Of a stretch of 47,468 bases of DNA, positions 3,853 to 47,124 are shown piece by piece (within the stretch, counting starts at the first letter, position 1; each line of letters opens with the position of its first letter). The stretch is from an uncultured bacterium (GTDB taxonomy: Bacteria > Nitrospirota > Thermodesulfovibrionia > Thermodesulfovibrionales > CALJEL01). The stretch covers positions 1 through 47,468 of the forward strand of contig CALJEL010000076.1 of assembly GCA_938074335.1 (NCBI GenBank), written 5' to 3'. The notes under the pieces are model-generated. The model made no database searches. It was not told the DNA's origin and saw only the letters and a program-made list of their open reading frames with translations. Position numbers and translations under genes: made by a program.

Positions 3853-3987
3853 CTGTTAAACCCCCAGTTCAGTAAGTTCCTTCACTGACATGGGAGTGCC
3901 CTCCTTTTTTGAAAAGTTTAATTTAAATTAATGGAGGATACACCCTTTCCTCTTAATGTTTCAATTTACACAGTAGATTTTACACTA
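3853..3987 (-). repeat. Direct repeat, copy 2 (broken gene start plus upstream region)
   Basis: This block matches the block at 1-145 in sequence and orientation, including AGGAGG and an ATG (3891-3889). It reads MSVKELTELGV and then stops at 3858-3856. Compared with the intact start, two extra bases in the GGGGG run shift the frame, so this copy encodes only 11 residues. It lies directly downstream of the HAMP remnant. Confidence 0.7.
3856..3891 (-). pseudogene. Truncated start of a gene related to the left-edge gene
   Basis: The reading frame MSVKELTELGV ends at a TAA after 11 codons because of a 2-base insertion relative to the MSVKEITELSLT start at 37. No continuation longer than about a dozen codons is found in other frames. 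The ribosome binding site is still good, so the peptide could still be made, but nothing suggests a function. Confidence 0.6.
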
Positions 3988-4116
3988 TCTCTTCAGGATC
4001 TCTATTGCCTTTTTTAACGATACCTTCATCCTTTCAAAGGCATCTGCAAGAAGTTTCATCTCATCATTAGTTTTTACTTCAAACCGTTTATCAAGATTCC
4101 CACGGCTTACCTCAGT
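3985..4116 (-). pseudogene. Remnant of the 3' end of a HAMP-domain gene
   Basis: Read on the minus strand, this stretch encodes TEVSRGNLDKRFEV, then NDEMKLLADAFERMKVSLKK, then AIEILKR and a TAG at 3987-3985. It matches the C-terminal HAMP segment of the intact heme-HAMP protein at 42469-43350 (DEISRGNFAKDFEVKAGNEI and so on). Everything upstream (membrane helices and heme domain) is missing, and the frame is +1 relative to the PATAN-like remnant joined to it. Confidence 0.8.
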
Positions 4117-4486
4117 TGGTGATAGTATTTATAAAGATCTCCATTACGCTCTGAACCTTTTCAAAAGGGATAAGCTCATTATCCTTTAAATCTGTCTCCA
4201 CAGGTGTAACTGTATCTTCATCAATCCCGAAGGTCTTTAATAATTCCTCTGTCAAAGGGCTATCCAGTTTTTTTAAGGGCTTTATCCCTTCAATAAAATT
4301 CAACTCAATGATCTCTTTATTCTTTATATATTCAATTGTCTCATCCGGTGGTCTGTTCCCAATGGAGATATAAACTACCTCCCCCTCTTCTATACTGACC
4401 TTGCAGAGATGAGGCTCATCCTTAAACTTGATAACAATCTGCCCTGTCTTCTAAGCCTTGAGGTATTTTTTAAGTTTAAAAATCAT
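4112..4486 (-). pseudogene. Degraded paralogue of the PATAN-like gene at 43363-43884
   Basis: The frame begins at ATG 4486 (MIFKLKKYLKA), meets an in-frame TAG at 4453-4451, then reads on as QIVIKFKDEPHLCKVSIEEGEVVYISIGN through to FEKVQSVMEIFIN and a TGA at 4114. It aligns along its length with the intact gene at 43363-43884 (SVKLKDEPHLLKVYIDRGEVVYVTLGT). The last third is missing: the frame runs straight into the HAMP remnant of the next gene. A nonsense codon plus an internal deletion mark it as a pseudogene. Confidence 0.8.
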
Positions 4487-4543: not shown

Positions 4544-6094
4544 ATGAGTCAAGCCATCCTTCAGGACCCTAAACTGCCGATAGGAATGGCGGGGGATGCC
4601 GAAAAGACAATACCAGCACCCCAGAAAATCGTCAGATTTTCTGGGGACCCCGCTTGCGACACCTTAATAGTGCAACAGAGCGGCAGAGCGACAGAGCGAC
4701 AGCTCTGGGAGAGAGGTAGCCGCAGGCTTCAGCCTGCGTGGCGTAGGCTTCCAGCCTGCGAATGGTGGAAATACAAAAAACGCCTTCAACAGGCTGGAAG
4801 CCTGTTCTACAAGCTTGCGGCTACCAGCTTTAGCACTATGGTGTCGCACTGTCGCACTATCGCACTGTGGCTCGGCTTTGAGGCATCCCCCGCCATTAGA
4901 GCACGGGGTGAAGACAAGCTTCACCCCGTTAACCCCGATAAAAATGCATTTCTATCAGCAAATTTAGGTCAGGATAAAATCACTGGTCTTTATATCCATA
5001 TACCTTTCTGTGCCAGAAAATGTCCTTACTGTGACTTTTATTCTCTGGAAGGCAGGTCCTCAGGATTAATTGACGATTATATCTCCGCCCTGATAAAGGA
5101 GATGGGTCTTTATCACGAACAGATGAACCATATAAAGACGGTTTACATTGGTGGTGGCACACCATCCATCCTCAATATTGCTCAACTTACTGTTTTACTT
5201 GAAGGGATTTACAGGTATATTAAGGGTTCAGGACTTATGGAGTTTACAGTGGAGGTAAATCCTAAAAGTATAACCGGCGAGAAATTAAGATTATTTAAAG
5301 ATTATGGTATTACGAGGATAAGCCTCGGGATTCAATCATTTAATGAAAGGGATTTAAAGATCCTTGGAAGGCTCCATTCCGTAGATGATTCATTAAAGGC
5401 GGTTGATGATATTAAAAGGCTTTTCTTTAACCTATCTGTGGACCTCATTTACGGCATTCCGGAACAGACCTTAAAAGACTGGCAAGAGAATCTCTCCATC
5501 ATTGAAGACCTGGATCCAGATCACATCTCTACTTATGAACTGACCGTGGAAGAAGGAACTCCCCTTCATCAAGAAATATCAAGGGGCCTATTAAAAAAAC
5601 CTGATGAAAAAGAAATAGTAGATATCTACGAAAAGACCCATAACTATCTTGAAAAAAAGGGTTATATTCACTATGAGGTTTCAAACTTTGCAAAAACTGA
5701 TAGACTATGTCTTCATAACCTCAACTACTGGAAGAGGGGAGAATATATAGGCATTGGAGCTGGTGCTCACTCATTCATTAATAAAAAAAGAATAGAAAAT
5801 TATAAGGACCTGAGGATCTATCAGAATTCATTAAAGGAAGGCAGGTTTCCCTATAAGAAAATAGTTGAACTAAGCCCTGAGGATGAGTTCGTAGAATTTA
5901 TCATGCTCGGTCTAAGGCTCAAAGAAGGGATATCCCTTGATAGAATTCCTGGAGAGACTTCATTTAAAGAAAGGGTTCTCAAAAGGTGCTTACCATTAAT
6001 TGAAAGAGGTCTCCTGAAAAAGGAGGATAATTTCCTTAAGCCCACGCTGAAAGGTTTTCTCCTGCTAAATGAGGTAATAACAGCGCTTATTTAA
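4544..6094 (+). CDS. hemW: HemW-like radical SAM protein with an in-frame repeat insertion
   Basis: HemW (formerly called HemN-like) is a radical SAM heme chaperone of the coproporphyrinogen III oxidase family. The 4Fe-4S/SAM motif is C156-x3-C160-x2-C163 (CARKCPYC), followed by IGGGTPSIL, the VEVNP segment, and the family C-terminal domain. The true oxidase HemN has a longer N-terminus with extra conserved residues; the LYIHIPFC start is HemW-type. At 516 residues it is about 136 longer than usual. The excess is residues 9-144, encoded by the repeat element at 4567-4968 plus one 6-bp duplication. Without it the protein would begin MSQAILQDKITGLYIHIPFC, a normal start. No other good start codon lies between the element and the core. 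Confidence 0.85.
   Translation: MSQAILQDPKLPIGMAGDAEKTIPAPQKIVRFSGDPACDTLIVQQSGRATERQLWERGSRRLQPAWRRLPACEWWKYKKRLQQAGSLFYKLAATSFSTMVSHCRTIALWLGFEASPAIRARGEDKLHPVNPDKNAFLSANLGQDKITGLYIHIPFCARKCPYCDFYSLEGRSSGLIDDYISALIKEMGLYHEQMNHIKTVYIGGGTPSILNIAQLTVLLEGIYRYIKGSGLMEFTVEVNPKSITGEKLRLFKDYGITRISLGIQSFNERDLKILGRLHSVDDSLKAVDDIKRLFFNLSVDLIYGIPEQTLKDWQENLSIIEDLDPDHISTYELTVEEGTPLHQEISRGLLKKPDEKEIVDIYEKTHNYLEKKGYIHYEVSNFAKTDRLCLHNLNYWKRGEYIGIGAGAHSFINKKRIENYKDLRIYQNSLKEGRFPYKKIVELSPEDEFVEFIMLGLRLKEGISLDRIPGETSFKERVLKRCLPLIERGLLKKEDNFLKPTLKGFLLLNEVITALI
4619..4646. repeat. Conserved hairpin (12-bp stem) of the repeat family
   Basis: CCCCAGAAAATC, loop GTCA, then GATTTTCTGGGG form a perfect 12-bp stem. 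The same stem recurs at 11386-11413, 19730-19756, 22823-22850 and 44498-44525, with loops that differ in sequence. Confidence 0.9.
4715..4825. repeat. REP/REPIN-like unit nested in E1
   Basis: The unit is bounded by GGTAGCCGCA and its inverse TTGCGGCTACC. Inside are the hairpin CGCAGGCT-TC-AGCCTGCG (4721-4738), a related TAGGCTTCCAGCCTGCG (4744-4760) and AACAGGCT-GGA-AGCCTGTT (4788-4806). This is the form of repetitive extragenic palindromes mobilised by REP-associated tyrosine transposases in other bacteria. No such transposase is in the window. Confidence 0.7.
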
Positions 6095-19633: not shown

Positions 19634-19932
19634 CCCTAAACTGCCGATAGGAATGGCGGGGATGCCGATATTTTGGGGTTCACGGGGTGAAGCTTGTCTT
19701 CACCCCGTGCTCTAAAGGCAATACCAGCACCCCAGAAAATCTGACGATTTTCTGGGAACCCGCTTGCGACACCTTAATAGAGCGACAGTGCGACAGAACG
19801 GCAGAGCGTGGGGTTGTAGGGGCAATTCATGAATTGCTCCTACTGTCGCACTATCGCACTGTGGCACTATTTGAGGCAGACTGCCAGTTCTCTAATGGCA
19901 AAATAGAGTAATAAAAACTGCTGCACTATTAT
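19634..19932. repeat. Composite repeat element E4
   Basis: The left end CCCTAAACTGCCGATAGGAA is identical to that of E1. Hairpin 1 (19681-19709) has a perfect 12-bp stem CACGGGGTGAAG with loop CTTGT. Hairpin 2 (19730-19756) has the CCCCAGAAAATC stem with loop TGAC, the reverse complement of the GTCA loop in E1. A 28-base near-perfect palindrome of the GTAGGGGC type lies at 19816-19843. The right part ends CAGTTCTCTAATGGCAAAATAGAG without a clear terminal repeat. It lies between the divergent rfbA and HAD genes. Confidence 0.85.
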
Positions 19933-22702: not shown

Positions 22703-23072
22703 CGGAAAAATGCTGATAGAAATTTCCACTAACCTTTTCAATAAGACTAGCAGGCTGCCCATATTCCGGGGTTCACGGGGTGAAGCTTGTCTTCATCCCG
22801 TGCTCTAAAGGCAATACCAGCACCCCAGAAAATCTGATGATTTTCTGGGGACCCCGCTCGCGACACCTTAATAGTGCGACAGAGCGACAGAGCGACAGGC
22901 AATAATAGAGCACTAGAGCAACAGAGCAGCAGCGCAGCAGTTAAATAATAATTTAAAAAAAATTCCTTAATAAAAACTACTGCTCTGCTGGTCTACTGCT
23001 CTATCAATGAAAACTACTGCTCTACTGCACTACTGCTCTGCTGGTCTAAGTGAAAATGCATTTCTATCGGCA
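22703..23072. repeat. Composite repeat element E5
   Basis: The ends are CGGAAAAATGCTGATAG (22703-22719) and CTATCGGCAAATTGAAG (right edge near 23072), an imperfect inverted pair. Hairpins lie at 22774-22802 (one mismatch) and 22823-22850 (perfect stem, loop TGAT). After GCGACACCTTAATAGTGCGA the element continues as AGCAGCAGAGCAG-type words and their inverse (about 22975-23045), so most of the right half can fold back. It lies in the gap upstream of the 57-aa membrane protein gene. Confidence 0.8.
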
Positions 23073-35169: not shown

Positions 35170-36873
35170 ATGAAAGGACTTTCTGTCAGAGTAAAGATAT
35201 TGCTTACCCTTATAGGCCTTTTGCTCCTTGCCACAACAGGTATCTTTATCTATCATGCCATTGAGATGGCTGAAGAACTTGAGAGGACATCCCTTGATAG
35301 ACACAAGCTCTTTGTAACCTCTCAGGCATCAAGGGCCTTTAACCTTCTTATTACCGAAGATATTAATGTCTTAAAAACCCTCACCGATGAGATAAAATCA
35401 ACAGAGGATATTCTATATGTAGTCTTTACTGATGCTGATGGAAAGGTCATAACCCATACCTTTGGAAGTGATGTCCCGCAGGAGCTTTTAGCAATAATAA
35501 GAGAAGGCAAACCAAAGGTAGAGGAATTCATTCTACAGGGTTTTGGAGAACATTATAATATAATCTCACCCGTAGGAGACTACGGCTTTCTGACTGCAGG
35601 CTTTAAGAAACCCTCAACCTTTGAACTCATAAAAAAGGAGATCGGGGACTTCCTCATCGTCTATGGTATAGCACTATCAATCGGAATAATCCTTTCATTC
35701 TTCATGTCATCAAGGATACTTAACCCTCTCAATGACCTAATGAAGGGTATAGAAAGATTTGGTAAGGGAGAGGCAGAAGAGATAAAGGTAAGGTCAATGG
35801 ATGAGTTTGGCGAAATAGCAAGGGTATTCAATGAAACACAGCAAAGGTTAAAGGGACTAATTCTGACCGAGGCAGAGAGGCAGAAGATGCAGGAAAATAT
35901 AGTAAACTTTCTCAATCTCCTGAGTGCTGCTTCAGAAGGAGACCTCAGTCAGAGGGCTGAGGTCACACCGGATATATTTGGCTCTCTTGGTGATGCCTTT
36001 AATCTAATGATTGAGGGTCTTACAGGACTTATAAATGATGTTAAGAACTCTGTTGAGGGAGTCTCTAAGGAGGCAACAAGGATACTAAATATACTTAAAG
36101 AAATGGAAAAGGGTGCAGAGACACAGATGGCTGAGGTGAAAAAGGCAACAGAGGCAACTGATGAGGCAGCCCATTCAGCCATGGCAATAAGTGAAAAAAC
36201 AGCAGAAGCTCAACAGATAGCAACTATGGCAATCCAGGCAACTGAGAGGGGTTCAAAGACCGTACTTGAGGCTATTGATGGAATACAGCTCATAAGGGTT
36301 ACCATACAGGCAATTAATAAGAGGATGAAATTCCTTTCTGAAAAACTCATGGAGATAGGAACGATCTCAGGCCTGATTACAGAGATAGCCAACAGGACAA
36401 ACCTCCTTGCAATCAATGCCTCTATAGAGGCATCAAGGGCAGGTGAACAGGGCAAAGGATTTATTGTCATAGCAGAGGAGATCAGGGGACTTGCTGAGAG
36501 GGCAGCAAAATCCACAAAACAGATAGGTGATATAATTGGAGCAATCCAGACAGAGTCAGGAGAGGTCACAAGACATCTTGAAGAGGCTACTGGATTTGTT
36601 GAGAAGGAGACAAAGATTGCACAGGAGACAGGAAAGGTCTTTACAGAGATTGATGATATAATCAAAAAAATCAGCACCATAATTTCAGAGATACATGAGT
36701 CCTCAGAAGGTCAGAAAGGTCTGAGCTCCAGGGTAGTCCTCTCCATGGAAGAGGTCCAGAGGATCTCACTCCAAATGCTCAAGCTTGTCCATGACTTCAG
36801 GGATGTGGCAAGGACACTTTCCGGGACATCGGAAAGACTGATGGGCTCTGTCCAGAAATTCAGGGTAGAGTAA
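35170..36873 (+). CDS. Methyl-accepting chemotaxis protein (PilJ-like)
   Basis: This 567-residue receptor has a first membrane helix (about residues 8-30), a periplasmic region of about 125 residues that may be a small Cache domain, a second helix (about 160-180), and a HAMP domain. A second HAMP-like unit ([35 protein letters not shown], about 248-285) is typical of PilJ-type receptors. The signalling domain has the hairpin tip [27 protein letters not shown]. It should feed the CheW/CheA pair encoded on the opposite strand, probably controlling type IV pili. No CheR or CheB is in the window. Confidence 0.9.
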
Positions 36874-36904: not shown

Positions 36905-37501
36905 ATGGAGAGAATCAATTATCCCCTTCTTACAGATATAGTAAAAAGGCATAAGGAAGAAATTGAAGAAATCCTGTCAAGGCATGACCTTGACATTGCC
37001 TTAAAGACAGCAAGGTTAAGACTCCTTGTAAGGCAGATTGCTGAAGAACTTTCAGGAAATACTGGATACGGATCAATTGATGAATTTTTTGAAGACTATG
37101 ACAGAGGCTCATCGCCACTTATAAAGCTTGAAGGAGAAGGTGTCAGGTATGGTGAGGTGATTATCCTTAAGGATTGCCCGATGGTGACTGTATTTGACCT
37201 CTTTAAAAATGGAAATGGCTTTCCTGAATACTGGAAAAAGATGCCCGAAGAATATATGACTCACTTCAAAAATGAGGCAATCCTTCATCCCCTGTGTATT
37301 ATTCATCAGAGGTTCAGGGATGAGCTTGCATCAAGGATTAAAAAGGGTAATTCCGTTGTTCACTCTATAGCAGTTGCCTGTAGATCTACAAGCTCAGGAA
37401 AGATTGTATATTCAGAATTTGGTCTTCAGATAGCAAACATGGAAAAAGAAGCCCTTGAGCTTATTATTAATGGCAGGGCCTGCGCCTTTGTGGTGAAATA
37501 A
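36905..37501 (+). CDS. Protein of unknown family in the chemosensory cluster (paralogue 1)
   Basis: I do not recognise the family. The 198-residue protein has no signal peptide or membrane helix. It is a paralogue of the next gene; conserved between them are CP (C91), the phrase FKNEAILHPLCIIHQRFRDEL with H128, C131 and H134, and a near-terminal AC (C193). The paired Cys and His residues suggest a bound metal, heme or iron-sulfur centre, or a redox role; this is inference. It follows the MCP gene by 31 bases with AGGAGG and overlaps the next gene by one base. Confidence 0.75.
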   Translation: MERINYPLLTDIVKRHKEEIEEILSRHDLDIALKTARLRLLVRQIAEELSGNTGYGSIDEFFEDYDRGSSPLIKLEGEGVRYGEVIILKDCPMVTVFDLFKNGNGFPEYWKKMPEEYMTHFKNEAILHPLCIIHQRFRDELASRIKKGNSVVHSIAVACRSTSSGKIVYSEFGLQIANMEKEALELIINGRACAFVVK

Positions 37502-38103
37502 TGAAACAATTCAATCTTCAGGGAACTGAGCTCACAGCACGCTTTAGCCCCCATATTGATGAGGTAAAAGACATAATCATTCGAAGGGGAGATATTACCC
37601 TTGCTGTCTCATCCCTGAGGAGATTTGCAAGAGGTTTTATAAGAAACTTCATTCAGGACCTCGTATCCACCATTGATATTGATGAACTTAATAATATAAC
37701 TGAATCAGAAGATATTAAAGACAATATTTTCTTAAAAAGGCTTGATGGAAGACTCCTGAGATATGAATCTTCCAGAGGGGAATTGTTGATAAGCACAGTC
37801 TGTCCTTTTGCAAATTTCTTTGCTACTATTACTGAAGAGACCTTTCTTAATGAATATATAAAGGCATTTAAAAATGAAGGCATCATACATCCCTTCTGTA
37901 TAGTACATCAGATAATTAGAGAAGAACTGCTGGCAAGGATAAGCAAAGGTCCCCTCTTCACACATCCTGTATTAATTGGAACACGGAATATGATTACAGG
38001 TGCCCTTGCTATTTCAAAAAATAACCTCTCACTTATCAATATATCAGAAGTGGACTTTAAAAAGATACTTAACGACTATGCCTGTGTTTTTTTAATACTT
38101 TAA
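37501..38103 (+). CDS. Protein of unknown family in the chemosensory cluster (paralogue 2)
   Basis: This 200-residue soluble protein is the tandem paralogue of the preceding one. It keeps CP (C101), FKNEGIIHPFCIVHQIIREEL with H130, C133 and H136, and the terminal AC (C195), while most other positions have diverged. The start overlaps the previous stop (TAATG), so translation is coupled and the two proteins may form a complex. Its end overlaps the end of convergent cheA by 4 bases. The function is unknown; a cytosolic ligand or redox sensor for the chemosensory array is one possibility. Confidence 0.75.
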   Translation: MKQFNLQGTELTARFSPHIDEVKDIIIRRGDITLAVSSLRRFARGFIRNFIQDLVSTIDIDELNNITESEDIKDNIFLKRLDGRLLRYESSRGELLISTVCPFANFFATITEETFLNEYIKAFKNEGIIHPFCIVHQIIREELLARISKGPLFTHPVLIGTRNMITGALAISKNNLSLINISEVDFKKILNDYACVFLIL

Positions 38104-40424
38104 GCCTGAACAGGCAGATATTTCCTCAAGACCTCAAGCATAGCCCTTTCTTCAAAGGGTTTAACAAGATAATCCCTAACCCCACTCTGAAGTGCCTTGA
38201 GTTTATGTTTTTCCGCACTCCTTGAGGTAAGGACAATAACAGGTATATCCTTCCATCTTTGTGAGGTCTTGAGTCTGTGAATCAGCTCATAACCATGCAT
38301 CACCGGCATCTCAAGGTCAGTTATAACAAGGTCAACAGGATTTTCTTCAAGTATATTAATAGCCTCTGCTCCATTGGTAGCACTCAGAACCCTGAACTTC
38401 CTTGCCTCAAGGAAGAGCGTGAGATATTTCCTCACACTCAATGAATCATCCACCACAAGAATAGATTTCCTTGTCTCTTTCTTTTCTTCTTTAAACCCGA
38501 ATTCAGCGGGTTTTACCTCAGTCTTAAATATACTCAAAGGATTAAGAACAAACCTCAATTTTCCATCTCCAGAGATTGTTGAACCTGAATAGATCGTAAG
38601 TCCTGAAAGAAATTTGTTCATCGGCTTTACGATGGTCTCTTCCTGACCCACTATATCATCCACCACAAGACCTGCCCTTCTATCAGTAAGATTACAGACA
38701 ATAAGAGGTCTCCTTGATCCCCTGACTCCACCATTATGACCATATCCTAAAACATCCGAGAGCCTTTTTATCTCTATCTCCGAACCCCTGTGAAGGAATC
38801 TGTCTGGTGAATCTGTCATATCAATCTCTGTTACCTCCTCAACAAAATTCATGGGTATAACAAACTCTGCACTCTCTATTCTTACCACTACAACATTTGT
38901 TATTGCGAGGGAGCTCGGAACCTTTATTGTAAAGGTAGTTCCCATCCCCACCTCAGAATCCACCTCTATAGAACCATTAATCTGGGCTATAAGATTCCTT
39001 ACCGCATCAAGTCCCATACCCCTTCCTGAACCCATGTCGGCTGAAGTGCTTGTGGTAAATCCTGGCATGAATATAAGGCTCAGGAGTTCCTGTTTTGATG
39101 GCTTGTGCTCAGGTTTCATAAGACCGAGTTTTACAGCCTCTTCAAATATCCTGTATGTGGTGATACCCCTTCCATTATCATGGACCTCTATAAAAACAAA
39201 AGGGCCTTCCCTTCTGGCATTTAGCATTATGACACCAGAGGATTTTTTACCCTTTTGTTTTCTTTCATCAGGCCTTTCAATACCATGAATAATCGCATTT
39301 CTCACAAGATGCATCAAGGGATCAAAAAGCCTCTCAAAGATAACCTTATCAATCTTTGTATCACCACCTGATATAAGAAGCTCCACTTCCTTTCCATATT
39401 GCTCTGCCATTTCCTTTACAGGTCTTGAGAATCTCTGGAAGAGCCTTCCTATCTCTATCATCCTCATCTCGGATATCTCTGTTCTCAAAAGCTTGATCAG
39501 GTTATCAATTGACTTAAGATCATCAGAAAAGGTATCAAAGAACTCTGAAAGACCTTTAAGTGCCTCGGCTATATCTGCTGTCATCTCCTGTAGTTTTCTT
39601 GAAAAAAGGTTCAGGTCATCGTATCTGTCAAATTCAAGCTCACCAAATTCTGCAAGGAGAGGATCCACATATTTGACGCTTCCAGGAAGTGAATAGGAAT
39701 AACGGTCTGAAAAAGAGCTGACCTCCTTGAGAAGTTTTGCACCAGAGTCTGTTATCTCATCAGCTATATCAATTGTTTTTTTGATTCTCTGCAGGAGGTA
39801 ATTTTTCTTTATTGTTATCTCACCTATAAGATTAAGGATATTTTCAATCTTAGCAATGTTTATCCTTATAAAATTTCCGGTAAAGAGTTCAATATCCTCT
39901 TTCCTTCTGCCAATGGTTATCCTCTTTTCCAGTACAGGTGAGGCAGGCTTTATCTCCTCAACAGACGGTTCAGCAACAACTGGCTGCGGAATTTCATCAA
40001 CCTGTTTTATCTCTTGTTCTTTTGAAGGTTTGCTGACCTGTGCCTTTAAGCCCTCTTCTATAAATCTTATAACCTCTTCATCCGCTCCAGGGGTCTCCTT
40101 CTCTCCTGAAGCTACCTTCCTTATCTGTTCCTTAATTGTATCAAGACCATAAAGGAGCAATTTCTTTATAGTGTTATCTGCCTTTCTCTGACCATCCTTT
40201 AATTCCTCAAGGATATCCTCCATCTTGTGGGCAATCCTGCTTATGGCATTGAGTTTAACAAGTGCAGCAGCTCCTTTAAGTGTATGGGCAGACCTGAAAA
40301 GAGACTCTATAGATGAGGCATCTGTAATCTCCTCAAGATTGGATATCCCTTCTTCAAGGTTATGGATGTGTTCCTCAGCTTCCTGAAGAAAGAATTCAAG
40401 GAGTCCTGAGGTATCGTAAGACAT
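38100..40424 (-). CDS. cheA: Chemotaxis histidine kinase CheA with C-terminal receiver
   Basis: This 774-residue hybrid has an Hpt domain (phospho-acceptor H47 in RSAHTLKGAA), an 80-residue linker, a dimerisation helix pair (about 185-300), the ATPase domain (HLVRNAIIHG, DNGRGI, GMGLDAVRN), a CheW-like domain, and a receiver with D703 (VITDLEMPVMHG). No CheY-binding P2 domain is apparent between Hpt and dimerisation regions. CheA-REC fusions are typical of pilus or gliding systems such as ChpA and FrzE. It overlaps cheW by one base. Confidence 0.93.
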   Translation of the reverse strand: MSYDTSGLLEFFLQEAEEHIHNLEEGISNLEEITDASSIESLFRSAHTLKGAAALVKLNAISRIAHKMEDILEELKDGQRKADNTIKKLLLYGLDTIKEQIRKVASGEKETPGADEEVIRFIEEGLKAQVSKPSKEQEIKQVDEIPQPVVAEPSVEEIKPASPVLEKRITIGRRKEDIELFTGNFIRINIAKIENILNLIGEITIKKNYLLQRIKKTIDIADEITDSGAKLLKEVSSFSDRYSYSLPGSVKYVDPLLAEFGELEFDRYDDLNLFSRKLQEMTADIAEALKGLSEFFDTFSDDLKSIDNLIKLLRTEISEMRMIEIGRLFQRFSRPVKEMAEQYGKEVELLISGGDTKIDKVIFERLFDPLMHLVRNAIIHGIERPDERKQKGKKSSGVIMLNARREGPFVFIEVHDNGRGITTYRIFEEAVKLGLMKPEHKPSKQELLSLIFMPGFTTSTSADMGSGRGMGLDAVRNLIAQINGSIEVDSEVGMGTTFTIKVPSSLAITNVVVVRIESAEFVIPMNFVEEVTEIDMTDSPDRFLHRGSEIEIKRLSDVLGYGHNGGVRGSRRPLIVCNLTDRRAGLVVDDIVGQEETIVKPMNKFLSGLTIYSGSTISGDGKLRFVLNPLSIFKTEVKPAEFGFKEEKKETRKSILVVDDSLSVRKYLTLFLEARKFRVLSATNGAEAINILEENPVDLVITDLEMPVMHGYELIHRLKTSQRWKDIPVIVLTSRSAEKHKLKALQSGVRDYLVKPFEERAMLEVLRKYLPVQA

Positions 40425-40834
40425 CAGATATCCTCCCTGATCATATAGGTCTCAAAAAATTTATTGATGTCAATAATATCTTCCTCAGGTATCTCCCTTG
40501 AGCCAGTAAAACCTGGTAGCCCCTCCGAAAGAAACCCTATTTCTTCTTTCATTGCCTCCACCACTATAAGCATGTTAGGTTCTTCAGCTGATGCGTCAGT
40601 ATTGTAAATCTTCGCAAGGTCAATAACAGGAACAACCGTTCCTCTTAATGGAATGGCACCCCTTATATAATCGGGTGCAAGAGGAAGAGGAAAGACCTCT
40701 TTAATCTCTACAACCTCTTTGAGGTTATCCAGCGGGAGATAATAGCTACGACCTCCCCTTCTGAAAAAACAATAGGAGGGCCTTTCAACTTCCTGTTCAG
40801 GAGAATCTTCTATCTTTCTTGCCTCATCCACCAA
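40424..40834 (-). CDS. cheW: CheW-like adaptor protein
   Basis: CheW links receptors to CheA. This 136-residue protein is a single CheW domain with EVFPLPLAPDYIRGAIPLRGTVVPVIDL. The N-terminal 20 residues are acidic and non-conserved. The start overlaps the end of the CheY gene by 11 bases; the exact start is uncertain (a GTG/ATG pair lies nearby). It is translated just before cheA (TGATG overlap). Confidence 0.88.
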   Translation of the reverse strand: MVDEARKIEDSPEQEVERPSYCFFRRGGRSYYLPLDNLKEVVEIKEVFPLPLAPDYIRGAIPLRGTVVPVIDLAKIYNTDASAEEPNMLIVVEAMKEEIGFLSEGLPGFTGSREIPEEDIIDINKFFETYMIREDI

Positions 40835-41189
40835 GATATCTTTTCACTGTAAGGAGAAGTTCAAGTGGTTCACAGGGCTTTGTAAGATACTCATCAGCAC
40901 CCTGCTTTGTACCCCAGAGTTTGTCACTGGGCTGATCCTTTGAAGTAAGAAGTATCACAGGGATATTCTTCAGTTTTTCATCGCGCTTTATGTCTCTACA
41001 GAGCTGAAAACCATTCTTCTTCGGCATAACAACATCAAGAACAATAAGGTCAAAGGGTTCAGACCTTACCAGTCTTTCTGCCTCCTCTCCATCTGTTGCA
41101 ATAACAAGTTCATGACCTGTCTGTGATAGGACAGATTTTATAAACTGTATATCCGTAGGACTGTCCTCCGCAATAAGAATCCTTGACAT
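40824..41189 (-). CDS. CheY-like response regulator
   Basis: This is a 121-residue single receiver domain with acidic pair E8-D9, phospho-acceptor D52 in LDVVMPKKNG, T in LLTSKD, and the KPCEP lysine motif. Within the cluster it is the likely output of CheA, comparable to PilG/PilH. A GGAGG site precedes the ATG. Confidence 0.9.
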   Translation of the reverse strand: MSRILIAEDSPTDIQFIKSVLSQTGHELVIATDGEEAERLVRSEPFDLIVLDVVMPKKNGFQLCRDIKRDEKLKNIPVILLTSKDQPSDKLWGTKQGADEYLTKPCEPLELLLTVKRYLGG

Positions 41190-41199
41190 CTATACCTCC

Positions 41200-42465
41200 T
41201 TATTTTGTCTTTTTCTTAAGGATTCCTGCCCTTGTGAGCGTATATATAATTCGTTTCACCTCATTTTCCTCCATACCGCTCATTTTAATTATATCACTAA
41301 GCGTTCTTTTTCCGTCAATAAGAGAAAAGATCCTTAACTCATTATCATCAAGATTTATATCCTCCATAGCAACATCTGTCATCAATCTTATAAAGACCAT
41401 GTCAGGGTCCTGGAACATCCTGGCAGCATACTTTCTCTCATCTACCCTCCTTGCTCCCTCAAGGATAAGATGAGAAGCTGGTATCCTCACCTTCACATCA
41501 GCAAGATGCCCCGGTATCTGCATCTTTTCAAAAAAGAAATTTCCGCTATCAAGTTCCATAGAAGAATAAACAGCCTCCCTTGTGCGATCCTCCAGTATCT
41601 TCATTATCTCATCCTCTGTGAGTATCTTCTCATCCACAAAGGCCCTGAGTATAGGAATCCCTGATTTCTTTGCAGTCCTGTATGCCCTGTAAAAGGCCTC
41701 TCTTGATACATTCATCTTTTTTTCTATAATCTCACCTGAAAGAAGGCTCTTGCCCTGCTTGCTCGTTGAGCCATAGTAGATATTCCCCTTATCAAAGTAT
41801 ATTTCTGCTGTCATGAGAGGTGAATAGAGAGATAGCTTTCCAGTAGCCTTTGTGGTGTCAAGGAGCTGTAAAAGGTCTGAAAGGCTGAAGTCACTGATAT
41901 CTCCGCTGAGGATTATACTTGAGGTCTTTACAACACCTGAATGTTTGAGGATATCAGAAAGTGTCCTCTGTATTAGTACAGGTAATTCTTTGTAAAGATA
42001 CCTGCTTAAAAGTCTGTCTATTGTCTCTTCAACAGCACTTTCTGTAAGCACCTCTGCCTCTTCAATCACCTCTGCAACACCTGCAAGCTCTTCCTGAGGG
42101 CTCAATATAGAATTTACCTTCTCAACGAGTTCTTCTGGTTGAAAGGGCTTTATAAAATAATCAACCACACCAAATTCTTCTGTAAACTTCTCACCAACAG
42201 CCTCTCCCTTGGCTGTAATGAGTATAATCGGCACATCTTTAAGTGATGGATTTTTTCTGGCAAGTTTACAGAACTGGTAGCCATTCATCTTTGGCATCAC
42301 AAAATCTACAAGTATAAGGGATGGTGAGACCTTCTGGGCAATATCAAGGCCTTTCTCTCCATCCTCAGCAGTGTAGACATTATAGCCATTCTCCTTAAGT
42401 ACAACCTCTGCAAGTTTTCTTACAGTTGCACTGTCATCAATAACAACTACATTGCCTCTTGGCAT
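41200..42465 (-). CDS. Response regulator with PATAN (DUF4388) domain
   Basis: The 421-residue protein has a receiver (about residues 1-122, phospho-acceptor D54 in LVDFVMPKMNG), a linker, and a PATAN/DUF4388 domain (about 185-325, with GDISDFSLSDLLQLLDTTK and TAEIYFDKGNIYYGS). A winged-helix-like C-terminus (about 345-421, LSDIIKMSGMEENEVKRIIYTLTRAGIL) follows. In cyanobacteria, PATAN-receiver proteins regulate type IV pilus motors in phototaxis, which suits this cluster. It sits between the heme-HAMP and CheY genes. Confidence 0.87.
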   Translation of the reverse strand: MPRGNVVVIDDSATVRKLAEVVLKENGYNVYTAEDGEKGLDIAQKVSPSLILVDFVMPKMNGYQFCKLARKNPSLKDVPIILITAKGEAVGEKFTEEFGVVDYFIKPFQPEELVEKVNSILSPQEELAGVAEVIEEAEVLTESAVEETIDRLLSRYLYKELPVLIQRTLSDILKHSGVVKTSSIILSGDISDFSLSDLLQLLDTTKATGKLSLYSPLMTAEIYFDKGNIYYGSTSKQGKSLLSGEIIEKKMNVSREAFYRAYRTAKKSGIPILRAFVDEKILTEDEIMKILEDRTREAVYSSMELDSGNFFFEKMQIPGHLADVKVRIPASHLILEGARRVDERKYAARMFQDPDMVFIRLMTDVAMEDINLDDNELRIFSLIDGKRTLSDIIKMSGMEENEVKRIIYTLTRAGILKKKTK

Positions 42466-42468
42466 GGT

Positions 42469-43350
42469 TTATTTCTTCCTCAGGATATCCATTGCCTTCA
42501 TAAGGCTGATCTTCATCCTTGTAAAGGCATCTGCAAGGGTCTTTATCTCATTACCTGCCTTCACTTCAAAGTCCTTTGCAAAATTACCCCTGCTTATCTC
42601 ATCAGCAGTCTGAACAAGCTCCTCAATAGGTTTTATAATGCTTGCCTTAATTAACCTGTCAATTACAAAGATAATAAACAGGAAGAATAAACTGTAAACA
42701 ATTGAAAATATCAGCAGTGCCCTTTTAGCATTCTGGATCGGAACATTTGCAGGGACATATACTGTATTTGCACCTATTATCTCTCCCACCTTCCAGTTGT
42801 ATCCAGATGTGGTGCCATATCTCTTTTTCTGTTCCTCTGTAACTGTCGCAGGATCTCCATGGCACCTGAGGCAATGGCTATCAACCACGATAGGTGTCAT
42901 GATAACATATGAGCTTCCCTGCTGCGTATCTATAAAACCACGCCATTGATCTGAGAACCTGCCGCTTCTGAACTCATTAATCTTTTCGGTCTCAAACCGA
43001 TTCGCCTTATTAACAGGGTTAAGCGGATTTATGCATGCGAATTTAAATGAATACTGCCTGTCGGATTCTGTAATTATATCTGATATCTCCCTGATAACAT
43101 AAAAACCTGATGTTAGTTCAACAGGTTCTTTATCTGAAAGTTCCTCAAGCACAGGTCTCATTGTTCCACCTACATATTCCTTTATGGCATCCATAGCCCT
43201 GAGCATCATCTGTGCCCTTTCAATACTCTCCCTTTCAGCATTCTTTAAAAGAACCTGATAACTTATAGCAATTATAAATGGAAGTGAAACAAAGTAGACT
43301 ATAACCATTATCAGTGTAAAACTCTTTCTTAATCTTAGATTCCTGAACAT
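42469..43350 (-). CDS. Heme-binding DUF3365-HAMP membrane protein without an output domain
   Basis: The 293-residue protein has a membrane helix (about residues 10-32), a periplasmic DUF3365/Tll0287-like domain with one c-type heme site (C160, C163, H164 in SHCLRCHGDP), a second helix (212-231) and a HAMP domain (232-285), and then stops at RKK. Such sensors normally continue into a kinase, MCP or cyclase domain; here there is none, so it must signal through partner proteins. The neighbours upstream and downstream both contain PATAN-type domains. A degraded copy of its HAMP end survives at 3985-4116. Confidence 0.87.
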   Translation of the reverse strand: MFRNLRLRKSFTLIMVIVYFVSLPFIIAISYQVLLKNAERESIERAQMMLRAMDAIKEYVGGTMRPVLEELSDKEPVELTSGFYVIREISDIITESDRQYSFKFACINPLNPVNKANRFETEKINEFRSGRFSDQWRGFIDTQQGSSYVIMTPIVVDSHCLRCHGDPATVTEEQKKRYGTTSGYNWKVGEIIGANTVYVPANVPIQNAKRALLIFSIVYSLFFLFIIFVIDRLIKASIIKPIEELVQTADEISRGNFAKDFEVKAGNEIKTLADAFTRMKISLMKAMDILRKK

Positions 43351-43362
43351 ATTCTCCTCTCC

Positions 43363-43884
43363 TTAGATTTTGTATTTTGAACTGAACCTTCCCTGTTCAG
43401 AAGCTGGTAATTCTTTAGTGAGGGAATCTACAAGCATTAGATAATCTCCTTGAGTCATGGGATTGCCTCTTGTATATGCAATCTTTGAGAACAGATCATC
43501 AATTATGAGTTTACCAATAGGACCTATGAGCTCAATAAACTCTGCCTCTAACCTCTGCACATCTTGAGGGGATACTGTAACACCGGTGCTTGCTTTTAAT
43601 GCCTCTGCTGAGAGTAAACCAAGGGCCTCTATCAGTTTCTCTGTGCAACCCCCCTCAACTCTATGGGGTGCTGTTACACCTTTAAGGAAAAAATATTCAA
43701 CAGGAACTGCGTTCTTCAATCTTGAAAAACACTCCTCATTCTTTAAAGTTCCAAGGGTTACATATACAACCTCACCCCTGTCTATGTAAACCTTCAGGAG
43801 ATGGGGCTCATCCTTGAGTTTAACTGATAAAACACCACTGTCTGCCTTTGTAACATGGAGTTTTATTATCTCTGCAAGCCCCAT
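43363..43884 (-). CDS. Small PATAN-like protein
   Basis: This 173-residue soluble protein has a PATAN/DUF4388-like start (residues 10-60, GVLSVKLKDEPHLLKVYIDRGEVVYVTLG, cf. the REC-PATAN protein) and a helical second half (about 105-165, RLEAEFIELIGPIGKLIIDDLFSKI). It is 12 bases upstream of the heme-HAMP gene. A pseudogene copy followed by a HAMP remnant at 3985-4486 shows that this pair once existed twice. It may be the cytoplasmic receiver of the heme sensor signal; this is inference. Confidence 0.75.
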   Translation of the reverse strand: MGLAEIIKLHVTKADSGVLSVKLKDEPHLLKVYIDRGEVVYVTLGTLKNEECFSRLKNAVPVEYFFLKGVTAPHRVEGGCTEKLIEALGLLSAEALKASTGVTVSPQDVQRLEAEFIELIGPIGKLIIDDLFSKIAYTRGNPMTQGDYLMLVDSLTKELPASEQGRFSSKYKI

Positions 43885-43886
43885 CC

Positions 43887-44195
43887 TCAGCAGCCCCTGA
43901 GACTCCTTATGTAAGTTCCAATCTTCTTACCATTTTTTATGATATACCGAACAGAGATCTTTTCTCCTATCTCAATCTTAAGTCTTTCAATTCTTGAAAA
44001 CACAGCATCATCCTCAAAAAATATGGTTGTCTCTACGCCCTGTTTATCCTGAATAACTATGGTTTTTTTTGCCTTATCCAAACTCACCAGTTTGCCTTTG
44101 ATAAGCTCGGTATCCTCTGAGCTGGCCACCGTGGTGATGGTAAAAACAAAGGCTATCAGAATAATTAAAATCGATGCCAAGTTAACTTTTTTCAT
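43887..44195 (-). CDS. Small exported protein of unknown function
   Basis: This 102-residue protein has a signal peptide (about residues 1-25, ending TTVASS) and a beta-rich mature part (KGKLVSLDKAKKTIVIQDKQ, then FFEDDAVFSRI, then KIEIGEKISVRYI), suggesting a small barrel like those of periplasmic OB-fold proteins. It ends in a single Cys, not a lipobox. It is the first gene of the chemosensory operon, two bases upstream of the PATAN-like gene, and has an AGGGAGG site. The function is unknown; it may assist the periplasmic heme domain. Confidence 0.72.
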   Translation of the reverse strand: MKKVNLASILIILIAFVFTITTVASSEDTELIKGKLVSLDKAKKTIVIQDKQGVETTIFFEDDAVFSRIERLKIEIGEKISVRYIIKNGKKIGTYIRSLRGC

Positions 44196-44381: not shown

Positions 44382-44764
44382 CCGCAATTTGCCGACAGAA
44401 TCTAATAACCCCTTTGATAAAACTGGCAGGCTGCCGAAATTTTGGGGTTCAGGGGGTGAAGCTTGTCTTCAGTTCGTGCTCTAAAGGCAATACTAAACCC
44501 CAGAAAATCGTTAGATTTTCTGGGGACCCCGCTTGCGACACCTTAATAGAGCAGTAGAGCAGCAGCGCAGCAGTCAAATAATAATTTAAAAAAATTCGTT
44601 AATAAAAACTACTTCTCTGCTGCTCTATTAATAAAACTACTGCTCTACTGCACTGCTGCTATATCAATAAAAACCGCTGGTCTACTGCACTACTGCTCTG
44701 CTGGTCTAAGAAGGCTTTGAGGCATACCCCGCCATTGAAAATGCATTTCTATTGGCAAAATAGG
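44382..44764. repeat. Composite repeat element E7
   Basis: The ends CCGCAATTTGCCGACAG (from 44382) and CTATTGGCAAAATAGGGG (to about 44765) form an imperfect inverted pair. The GGGGTGAAGCTTGTCTTCAG hairpin is decayed on one side. The 12-bp-stem hairpin (44498-44525, loop GTTA) is perfect. AGCAGTAGAGCAGCAG words and their inverse fill about 44550-44705, then AAGGCTTTGAGGCATACCCC. Weakly similar flanks (AATCA, GATCA) might be a decayed target duplication. It lies between the divergent chemosensory and pilin genes. Confidence 0.8.
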
Positions 44765-46401: not shown

Positions 46402-47124
46402 ATGCTAAGCACCTATAAGATAGAGACCTTTGAGGACATCCTCAAGGCACTAAGGGAGAGACCTGAATGGCTTGAAGAACTCAGGAGACTTATCCTTACA
46501 GAGGAACTCCTTGCCCTTCCGCAGAAATTTGAAAATTTCAGAAAAGAAGAGTTCCAGCCTTTAAAGGAAAAGGTTGACAGAATTGAACAGGATGTGGGTG
46601 TGCTTAAACAAGATGTGACTGTGCTTAAACAGGATGTGGCTGTGCTTAAGCAGGATGTGGCTGTGCTTAAGCAGGATGTGGCTGTGCTTAAACAGGATGT
46701 GGGTATTTTAAAGATTGATGTGGCTGAACTGAAAGGTGAGAGTTTTGAAAGAAGGGTCAGGGAAAGGGCACCAGCTTATTTTGGCAGGTTTATAAGAAGA
46801 TGTAAGGTAATCTCCTCTGAAGAACTTGCAGATATCCTTGATGATGCCATGGAGAGGGGTATCATCCAAGAAGAAGAAAGGGATGATGCCCTTAATATTG
46901 ATGTGGTTGTCACAGGTGTGCTTAAACAGGACAGAGAAAAAAGGATAGTCCTTGTAACAGAGGTCTCAATAAAGGCAGACAGGGTTGATGTGGAGAGGGC
47001 ATCTGAGAGGGCAAGGGTTATTGAAAGGGCAATGAACCTTCCTGCTATTGCCATTGTAATAGGAAAGGAATCTACAGAAGGAGCCCAGCAAAGGGCAAAG
47101 GAGCTTGATGTGCTCCTATGTTGA
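46402..47124 (+). CDS. Coiled-coil protein with nuclease-like C-terminal domain (DUF3782-like)
   Basis: The 240-residue protein has a helical N-terminus, a heptad coiled coil (about residues 50-115) of repeated VLKQDVA units, and a C-terminal domain (about 116-240) with DDALNIDVVVTG, LVTEVSIKAD and AIAIVIGKES, which resembles a PD-(D/E)xK nuclease fold (D..D-VxxxE pattern). Such proteins are frequent in multi-copy families of anaerobes and cyanobacteria. The function is not established. It begins 9 bases after the pilin remnant, with no good ribosome binding site. Confidence 0.7.
   Translation: MLSTYKIETFEDILKALRERPEWLEELRRLILTEELLALPQKFENFRKEEFQPLKEKVDRIEQDVGVLKQDVTVLKQDVAVLKQDVAVLKQDVAVLKQDVGILKIDVAELKGESFERRVRERAPAYFGRFIRRCKVISSEELADILDDAMERGIIQEEERDDALNIDVVVTGVLKQDREKRIVLVTEVSIKADRVDVERASERARVIERAMNLPAIAIVIGKESTEGAQQRAKELDVLLC
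46591..46737 (+). repeat. 21-bp tandem repeat inside the coiled-coil gene (7 units)
   Basis: Seven 21-base units begin GATGTGGCTGTGCTTAA or variants. Units 1-5 are nearly identical, and units 6-7 have drifted. Each unit encodes one heptad (DVAVLKQ), so copy-number change lengthens or shortens the coiled coil in frame. A 14-base piece of the unit (GTGCTTAAACAGGA) recurs at about 46918 in the C-terminal domain. Confidence 0.9.

Follow-up and report, generated by a model that had tools for sequence, protein, structure and literature searches.

A chemosensory operon within the 47,468-nucleotide stretch of DNA analyzed here (the window) encodes a membrane receptor whose only cytosolic part is a HAMP domain, next to a small partner protein (sp) with a PATAN-like N-terminal part and a STAC-like C-terminal domain. 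Our leading interpretation, held at a probability of roughly two-thirds, is that the two form a receptor split in two, with HAMP signaling in trans via the STAC-like domain of the detached output protein. The pair is conserved, its sensors and outputs are swapped among bacteria, and it occurs one-to-one in this genome.

A HAMP-terminal receptor and its small neighbor

The genes concerned are arranged on the minus strand in the order exported protein, sp, HAMP receptor, REC-DUF4388 regulator, CheY, CheW and CheA-REC, with intergenic gaps of 12 and 3 nt flanking the HAMP gene. The features referred to below are:

43887-44195, minus strand: predicted exported protein, 102 aa, two bases upstream of sp (ORF)
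43363-43884, minus strand: small partner protein sp, 173 aa (41 full-length relatives in the phylum)
43675-43884, minus strand: minimal PATAN/DUF4388-like N-terminal domain of sp, about residues 1-70 (DUF4388, 18.7 bits)
43366-43575, minus strand: STAC-like four-helix domain of sp, residues 104-173 (AF2, Foldseek, profile match to AF1502)
43513-43524, minus strand: GPIG motif within the STAC-like domain
42469-43350, minus strand: HAMP-terminal receptor, 293 aa, two TM helices (Pfam; end point conserved across relatives)
42751-43245, minus strand: periplasmic Tll0287 (sCache_heme) sensor domain (Pfam PF11845)
42859-42873, minus strand: CXXCH motif CLRCH, a c-heme motif (sequence)
42502-42645, minus strand: HAMP domain (Pfam PF00672)
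42472-42501, minus strand: C-terminal tail of ten residues beyond HAMP (paired receptors in several phyla end in comparable short helical tails)
41200-42465, minus strand: REC-PATAN response regulator, 421 aa (Response_reg 87.6 bits, DUF4388 86.5 bits)
40824-41189, minus strand: CheY-like single receiver (Pfam)
40424-40834, minus strand: CheW (Pfam)
38100-40424, minus strand: CheA-REC hybrid kinase (Pfam Hpt, HATPase_c, CheW, Response_reg)
35170-36873, plus strand: conventional MCP, convergent with the Che genes (MCPsignal 125 bits)
3985-4486, minus strand: decayed second pair, an sp remnant followed by a HAMP C-terminus (sequence comparison)

Pfam matches to the receptor comprise Tll0287-like (119.9 bits, residues 36-200) and HAMP (41.5 bits, residues 236-283 of 293); the protein thus consists of a sensor, TM helices and HAMP, and stops 10 residues past the latter. 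A first-pass annotation of the window had described a DUF3365-HAMP protein stopping directly after HAMP, inside a CheA/CheW/CheY operon and followed by a REC-PATAN gene, and both the end point and the gene order were confirmed. It had also considered that the gene might be the truncated form of a longer receptor, which is not borne out: paired relatives in several phyla terminate 0-21 residues past HAMP. A truncated MCP or kinase receptor was ruled out, since paired relatives end at the same place. In a regular-expression comparison, the strict HAMP-tail pattern matched 50 of 90 terminal HAMP domains; only 3 fused HAMPs were found, too few for a contrast with the terminal ones. The CXXCH motif, together with the PF11845 match, makes the sensor domain a candidate for covalent heme attachment.

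The N-terminal part of sp falls below the Pfam cut-off of 25 for DUF4388/PATAN (PF14332). As 37 of the 42 family members match this model at E up to 1 (best 2e-6), we call it PATAN-like only. In the neighboring regulator, both REC and DUF4388 exceed the curated cut-off; a tblastn search of this protein against plasmids gave coverage of about the receiver part only. The earlier description of a small PATAN-like protein before the HAMP gene therefore holds for the N-terminus, at sub-threshold level; genes and order at the locus were likewise right, whereas the second domain of sp and the MCP gene beside the Che genes had been overlooked.

This second domain, ~70 residues at the C-terminus, has no Pfam or NCBIfam match, and an identity with DUF8082 was dropped as no Pfam model matched. 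A GP dipeptide between predicted helices 1 and 2 is invariant in 42/42 family members, mostly preceded by I or V and followed two residues later by G or A. The AF2 model consists of four helices (pLDDT 97), and a Foldseek search with it returned as its top two matches the chains of AF1502 (5a1q; prob 0.82, TM 0.54, E 0.47), all further matches having a probability of 0.21 or less. According to the CASP11 summary, AF1502 is a STAC structure of four helices with LGPx(x)A between helices 1 and 2 (PMC4834066; PDB 5A1Q), the A of this motif not being strict in the sp family. The same source places its gene with that of Af1503, an Archaeoglobus fulgidus receptor with HAMP as only cytosolic part (PMC4834066). 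Searched against all PDB sequences, the whole-family profile matched AF1502 alone below E=0.05 (E=0.0037), aligned over the GPI motif; AF1502 ranked fourth (E=0.041) with a shorter cross-phylum profile, and hhalign to AF1502 yielded E=4.8e-6 on a fragment picked from the profile alignment. Because fold, motif position and genomic partner all match AF1502, we label the domain STAC-like; the resemblance to AF1502 is modest, and formal homology to STAC is probable.

The predicted exported protein upstream of sp is present in the congener (L013) and absent from a further relative (L014); it therefore probably does not belong to the unit of sp and receptor. A chemosensory system devoid of an MCP was ruled out, as the MCP at 35170-36873 adjoins the Che genes. 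Two tandem genes of ~200 aa (36905-38103, plus strand) lie between MCP and CheA; the second has no Pfam match, and a relative of it adjoins cheA in L015. A promoter and terminator scan gave a chance-level result.

Conservation of the pair and exchange of sensors and outputs

A profile of sp, seeded irrespective of neighbors, matched 53 of 396 genomes of the phylum Nitrospirota, to which the window belongs. Among the 41 full-length sp genes with surroundings read, 38 share their locus with a protein ending 0-10 residues past HAMP, 34 of these within 350 bp and on the same strand; these counts, like those for other phyla below, are not phylogenetically independent. The co-occurrence of DUF3365-HAMP with short PATAN genes, for which the first-pass annotation had suggested a genome survey, is thus widely conserved. 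Viewed from the receptor side, 19 of the 20 full-length HAMP-terminal Tll0287 proteins listed for the phylum are located in an sp locus, the sole exception (L264, G019:C124) having no sp nearby. HAMP end and sp stay while sensors are exchanged: Tll0287, dCache_3, a single Cache-like domain and Mcp40H-20_sensor all occur, and two genomes (G158 and G194) each contain two pairs with different sensors. The gene order is reversed in L087 and L092. Three sp loci (L069, L072, L073) have no HAMP-terminal gene; in the genomes of the latter two (G155, G179), a protein of 636-638 aa encoded ~6 kb away is similar to the Tll0287-HAMP profile and is possibly a receptor with attached output.

When about 85,000 species genomes were scanned with a Tll0287-HAMP profile and 80 loci kept, the association proved to extend beyond the phylum. 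Outside Nitrospirota, a STAC-like gene was found within about 4 kb of 14/25 HAMP-terminal versus 0/40 output-fused Tll0287 proteins (Fisher p=7e-8). Eight of the 11 HAMP-terminal receptors without such a neighbor have the domain elsewhere in the genome. The remaining three (L118, L120, L139), whose genomes lack the domain, carry a HAMP tail that is RLNMIRTHKGKEHG-like, not S(L/M/V)xxAMxxL-like, an observation on three related sequences, and perhaps use another kind of partner. They also have in common a different neighborhood of 828-aa, 356-aa and ~334-aa genes.

Surveys with domain profiles examined loci of about 1.5 kb per side, so that a partner missing there may still exist farther away, and the sets include some duplicated loci and some in which a single protein contributes two domains. 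In 18 genomes plus the phylum of G408 (a Desulfobulbaceae MAG, the genome of L121), 37/48 STAC-like genes are accompanied by a HAMP-terminal gene within the ~3-kb locus. The corresponding count in the phylum of the Nostoc genome G409 is 19/27, in 18 cases on the opposite strand at a distance of up to 350 bp. Because some seeds of the domain profile A6 were proteins adjoining Tll0287-HAMP genes, these cyanobacterial figures may be inflated. The STAC-like domain is C-terminal in 133/138 ORF matches. No HAMP-STAC fusion of the Rosetta stone type was present among 5710 ORFs.

What is attached to the STAC-like domain varies between lineages. Its partner is a PATAN domain in Gammaproteobacteria and frequently in Desulfobacterota, roadblock/LC7 in Desulfobulbaceae (PDB 7f8m, E=8e-5), TIR in Nostoc and Cyanothece (L132, L135 and L138, with Pfam matches for the first two); a unicellular cyanobacterium (L115) has a caspase domain in this position. 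Ser/Thr kinases bear the domain in Sulfitobacter and Loktanella, where the genes overlap, and also in cyanobacteria (L236, L237), and there is a weak winged-helix match in L231. The cyanobacterial TIR, caspase and kinase genes (L132, L135, L138; L115; L236-L263) adjoin Tll0287-HAMP genes on the opposite strand, and some cyanobacterial effector genes bear two STAC-like copies.

These data bear on which part of sp the receptor would touch. The first-pass annotation had proposed that HAMP directly contacts the PATAN domains of both the small protein and the REC-PATAN regulator. PATAN-like partners are indeed usual in Nitrospirota and frequent in Desulfobacterota, and a REC-PATAN gene sits in the same operon here; nevertheless we regard this as unlikely, given that receptors also pair with PATAN-free STAC-like proteins carrying TIR, caspase, kinase or roadblock domains. 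Nor is REC-PATAN a necessary partner of HAMP, being absent near many Nitrospirota pairs (L081, L086, L087, L089, L091-L094, L098-L104). The core of that model, an output-less HAMP sensor that would signal to its small neighbor by touching it, withstands both of the refutations named in the first pass: the pair is conserved beyond this organism, and the HAMP gene is no truncated longer receptor. PATAN as point of contact is probably wrong, because across phyla the STAC-like domain is kept while the N-terminal domain changes. Distances between HAMP domains correlate better with those of the STAC-like part (0.87) than with those of the PATAN part (0.71) over the 38 pairs, but not within the 18 Tll0287 pairs (0.76 for both), where the comparison is not discriminating.

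We consider it just as improbable that the receptor acts in the chemoreceptor array, e.g., by joining the MCP at 35170-36873 as an accessory subunit, with sp tuning CheA or CheW. In the window and in many Nitrospirota loci the pair does have Che genes around it and an MCP nearby; however, about a dozen Nitrospirota pairs (L081, L086, L087, L089, L091-L094, L098, L101, L102, L104) have no Che genes, and the kinase, TIR and caspase pairs are found outside Che operons as well. Still less credence is given to two co-transcribed proteins that serve one pathway and never touch, the STAC-like domain binding, e.g., a transporter, as the STAC domain of CbrA docks on its SLC5 transporter (PMC13022988). 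Transporters are no recurrent neighbor of the STAC-like genes, whereas HAMP-terminal receptors are, even in divergent gene pairs.

Proposed signaling in trans and related systems

The split receptor remains our preferred reading: since HAMP end and STAC-like domain recur while sensors and effectors are swapped, we infer that the two bind each other and that HAMP controls the effector in trans. HAMP proteins are dimers, and the 293-aa protein would be a membrane receptor without output, presumably dimeric as well. Its periplasmic c-heme Cache domain would detect NO or redox state and alter HAMP. The STAC-like domain of the 173-aa protein would dock on HAMP and its short helical tail, and docking would change the availability of the PATAN-like domain. 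This PATAN unit probably shares its target with REC-PATAN, most likely a motor ATPase of type IV pili, and a signal independent of phosphorylation would thereby converge with the CheA pathway.

Tll0287/DUF3365 is described as a c-heme Cache family, sCache_heme, and a HAMP-bearing member from P. azotoformans binds NO and releases it slowly (PMC12889525), for which reason NO may be the ligand here. The window receptor resembles these sensors in its periplasmic domain with CXXCH; the portion of that paper available to us describes fused outputs and stand-alone domains and mentions no in-trans output partner for members ending in HAMP (PMC12889525). In Synechocystis, PixE, PixG and LsiR are PATAN response regulators, and PixE interacts with the motor PilB1 (PMC7690835), which makes the pilus motor the leading candidate target and a type IV pilus output plausible; PilB/PilT-type ATPases are present in the genome. 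PATAN as output module and the chemosensory setting are shared with these regulators (PMC7690835), but sp has no REC domain and its control would come from HAMP, not from phosphorylation. The roadblock, TIR and kinase versions show that pili are not the output in every case.

The closest precedent is Af1503/Af1502, likewise a receptor with HAMP as only cytosolic part and a small four-helix partner with a GP motif between helices 1 and 2. As far as the published description available to us goes, Af1502 is an archaeal STAC domain on its own and tied to transport genes, whereas the bacterial domain comes attached to an effector, PATAN in the window and roadblock, TIR, caspase, kinase or wHTH in other bacteria, and the bacterial pair, unlike the archaeal one, can sit in a Che operon. 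In the SLC5-STAC histidine kinases CbrA and CrbS, STAC similarly lies between membrane sensor and cytoplasmic output; these are single polypeptides with transporter input, in contrast to the two proteins and Cache-HAMP input of the window pair (PMC13022988). No report of a bacterial pair of the Af1503/Af1502 type was found in the open-access literature, although an earlier mention elsewhere is possible. A bacterial variant of the arrangement, with the STAC-like domain linked to effectors, would be new.

More broadly, we lean slightly towards a general bacterial class of HAMP-terminal receptors and STAC-like-tagged proteins, in which HAMP drives swappable effectors in trans without phosphotransfer between them. 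The proposed class spans at least Nitrospirota, Desulfobacterota, Cyanobacteria and Proteobacteria, with PATAN, roadblock, TIR, Ser/Thr kinase, caspase and winged-helix effectors. HAMP-ending receptors have no recognizable output, and for Af1503 the published account left unclear the role of the STAC partner coupled to it in the genome. Should HAMP dock on the STAC-like domain, receptor outputs become predictable from genome sequence, and a general class would also explain signaling by Af1503-type receptors. The recurrence with interchangeable sensors and outputs suggests that signaling via a receptor with its output on a separate protein is widespread in bacteria. Four sensor types and at least six output types provide natural constructs for testing HAMP signaling outside kinases and chemoreceptors, and the recently described c-heme, NO-binding Cache family gains candidate targets including TIR and kinase proteins.

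The pair in its own genome

The genome encodes a single intact STAC-like protein and a single intact HAMP-terminal receptor, in adjacent genes. A stop right after HAMP occurs in just two of the 26 HAMP matches, the window receptor and a decayed copy; the others with frame read continue at least 90 residues from the HAMP start. Apart from these, L276 meets a contig end, and L278 and L299 belong to frames 702 and 451 aa long. The decayed copy at 3985-4486, already noticed as a fossil pair in the first pass, proved to hold remnants of both genes in the order of the intact pair: an sp remnant (4106-4474) interrupted by TAG and TGA, and a HAMP remnant (3988-4116) that retains HAMP tail and stop. 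The sp remnant is closer to sp of other clades (best L066, 44%; L016 also close) than to that of the window (36%), and by this sequence comparison the fossil therefore derives from another clade of pairs.

Relative to the congener G001, dN/dS amounts to 0.14 for sp and 0.06 for the HAMP gene, indicating purifying selection on both. That the receptor is itself a decaying or truncated sensor with an incidental neighbor is barely credible: the decayed copy shows that such pairs can be lost, but receptors of four phylum-level groups end at this very point, and the dN/dS values speak against it.

Several further elements were observed. A repeated element of 92-145 nt (4603-4694, 19660-19804, 22753-22898, 44429-44573), with copies next to the intact operon as well as the fossil pair, holds an apparently perfect palindrome, CCCCAGAAAATC...GATTTTCTGGGG, together with short tandem units in decay. 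A TAG splits a second Tll0287-HAMP sensor kinase of this genome (G000:C38, about 13.0-14.8 kb; L002, L265) into frames of 240 aa and 401 aa. A gene at 46402-47124 on the plus strand contains about seven 21-nt in-frame repeats (LKQDVAV) in a predicted coiled coil.
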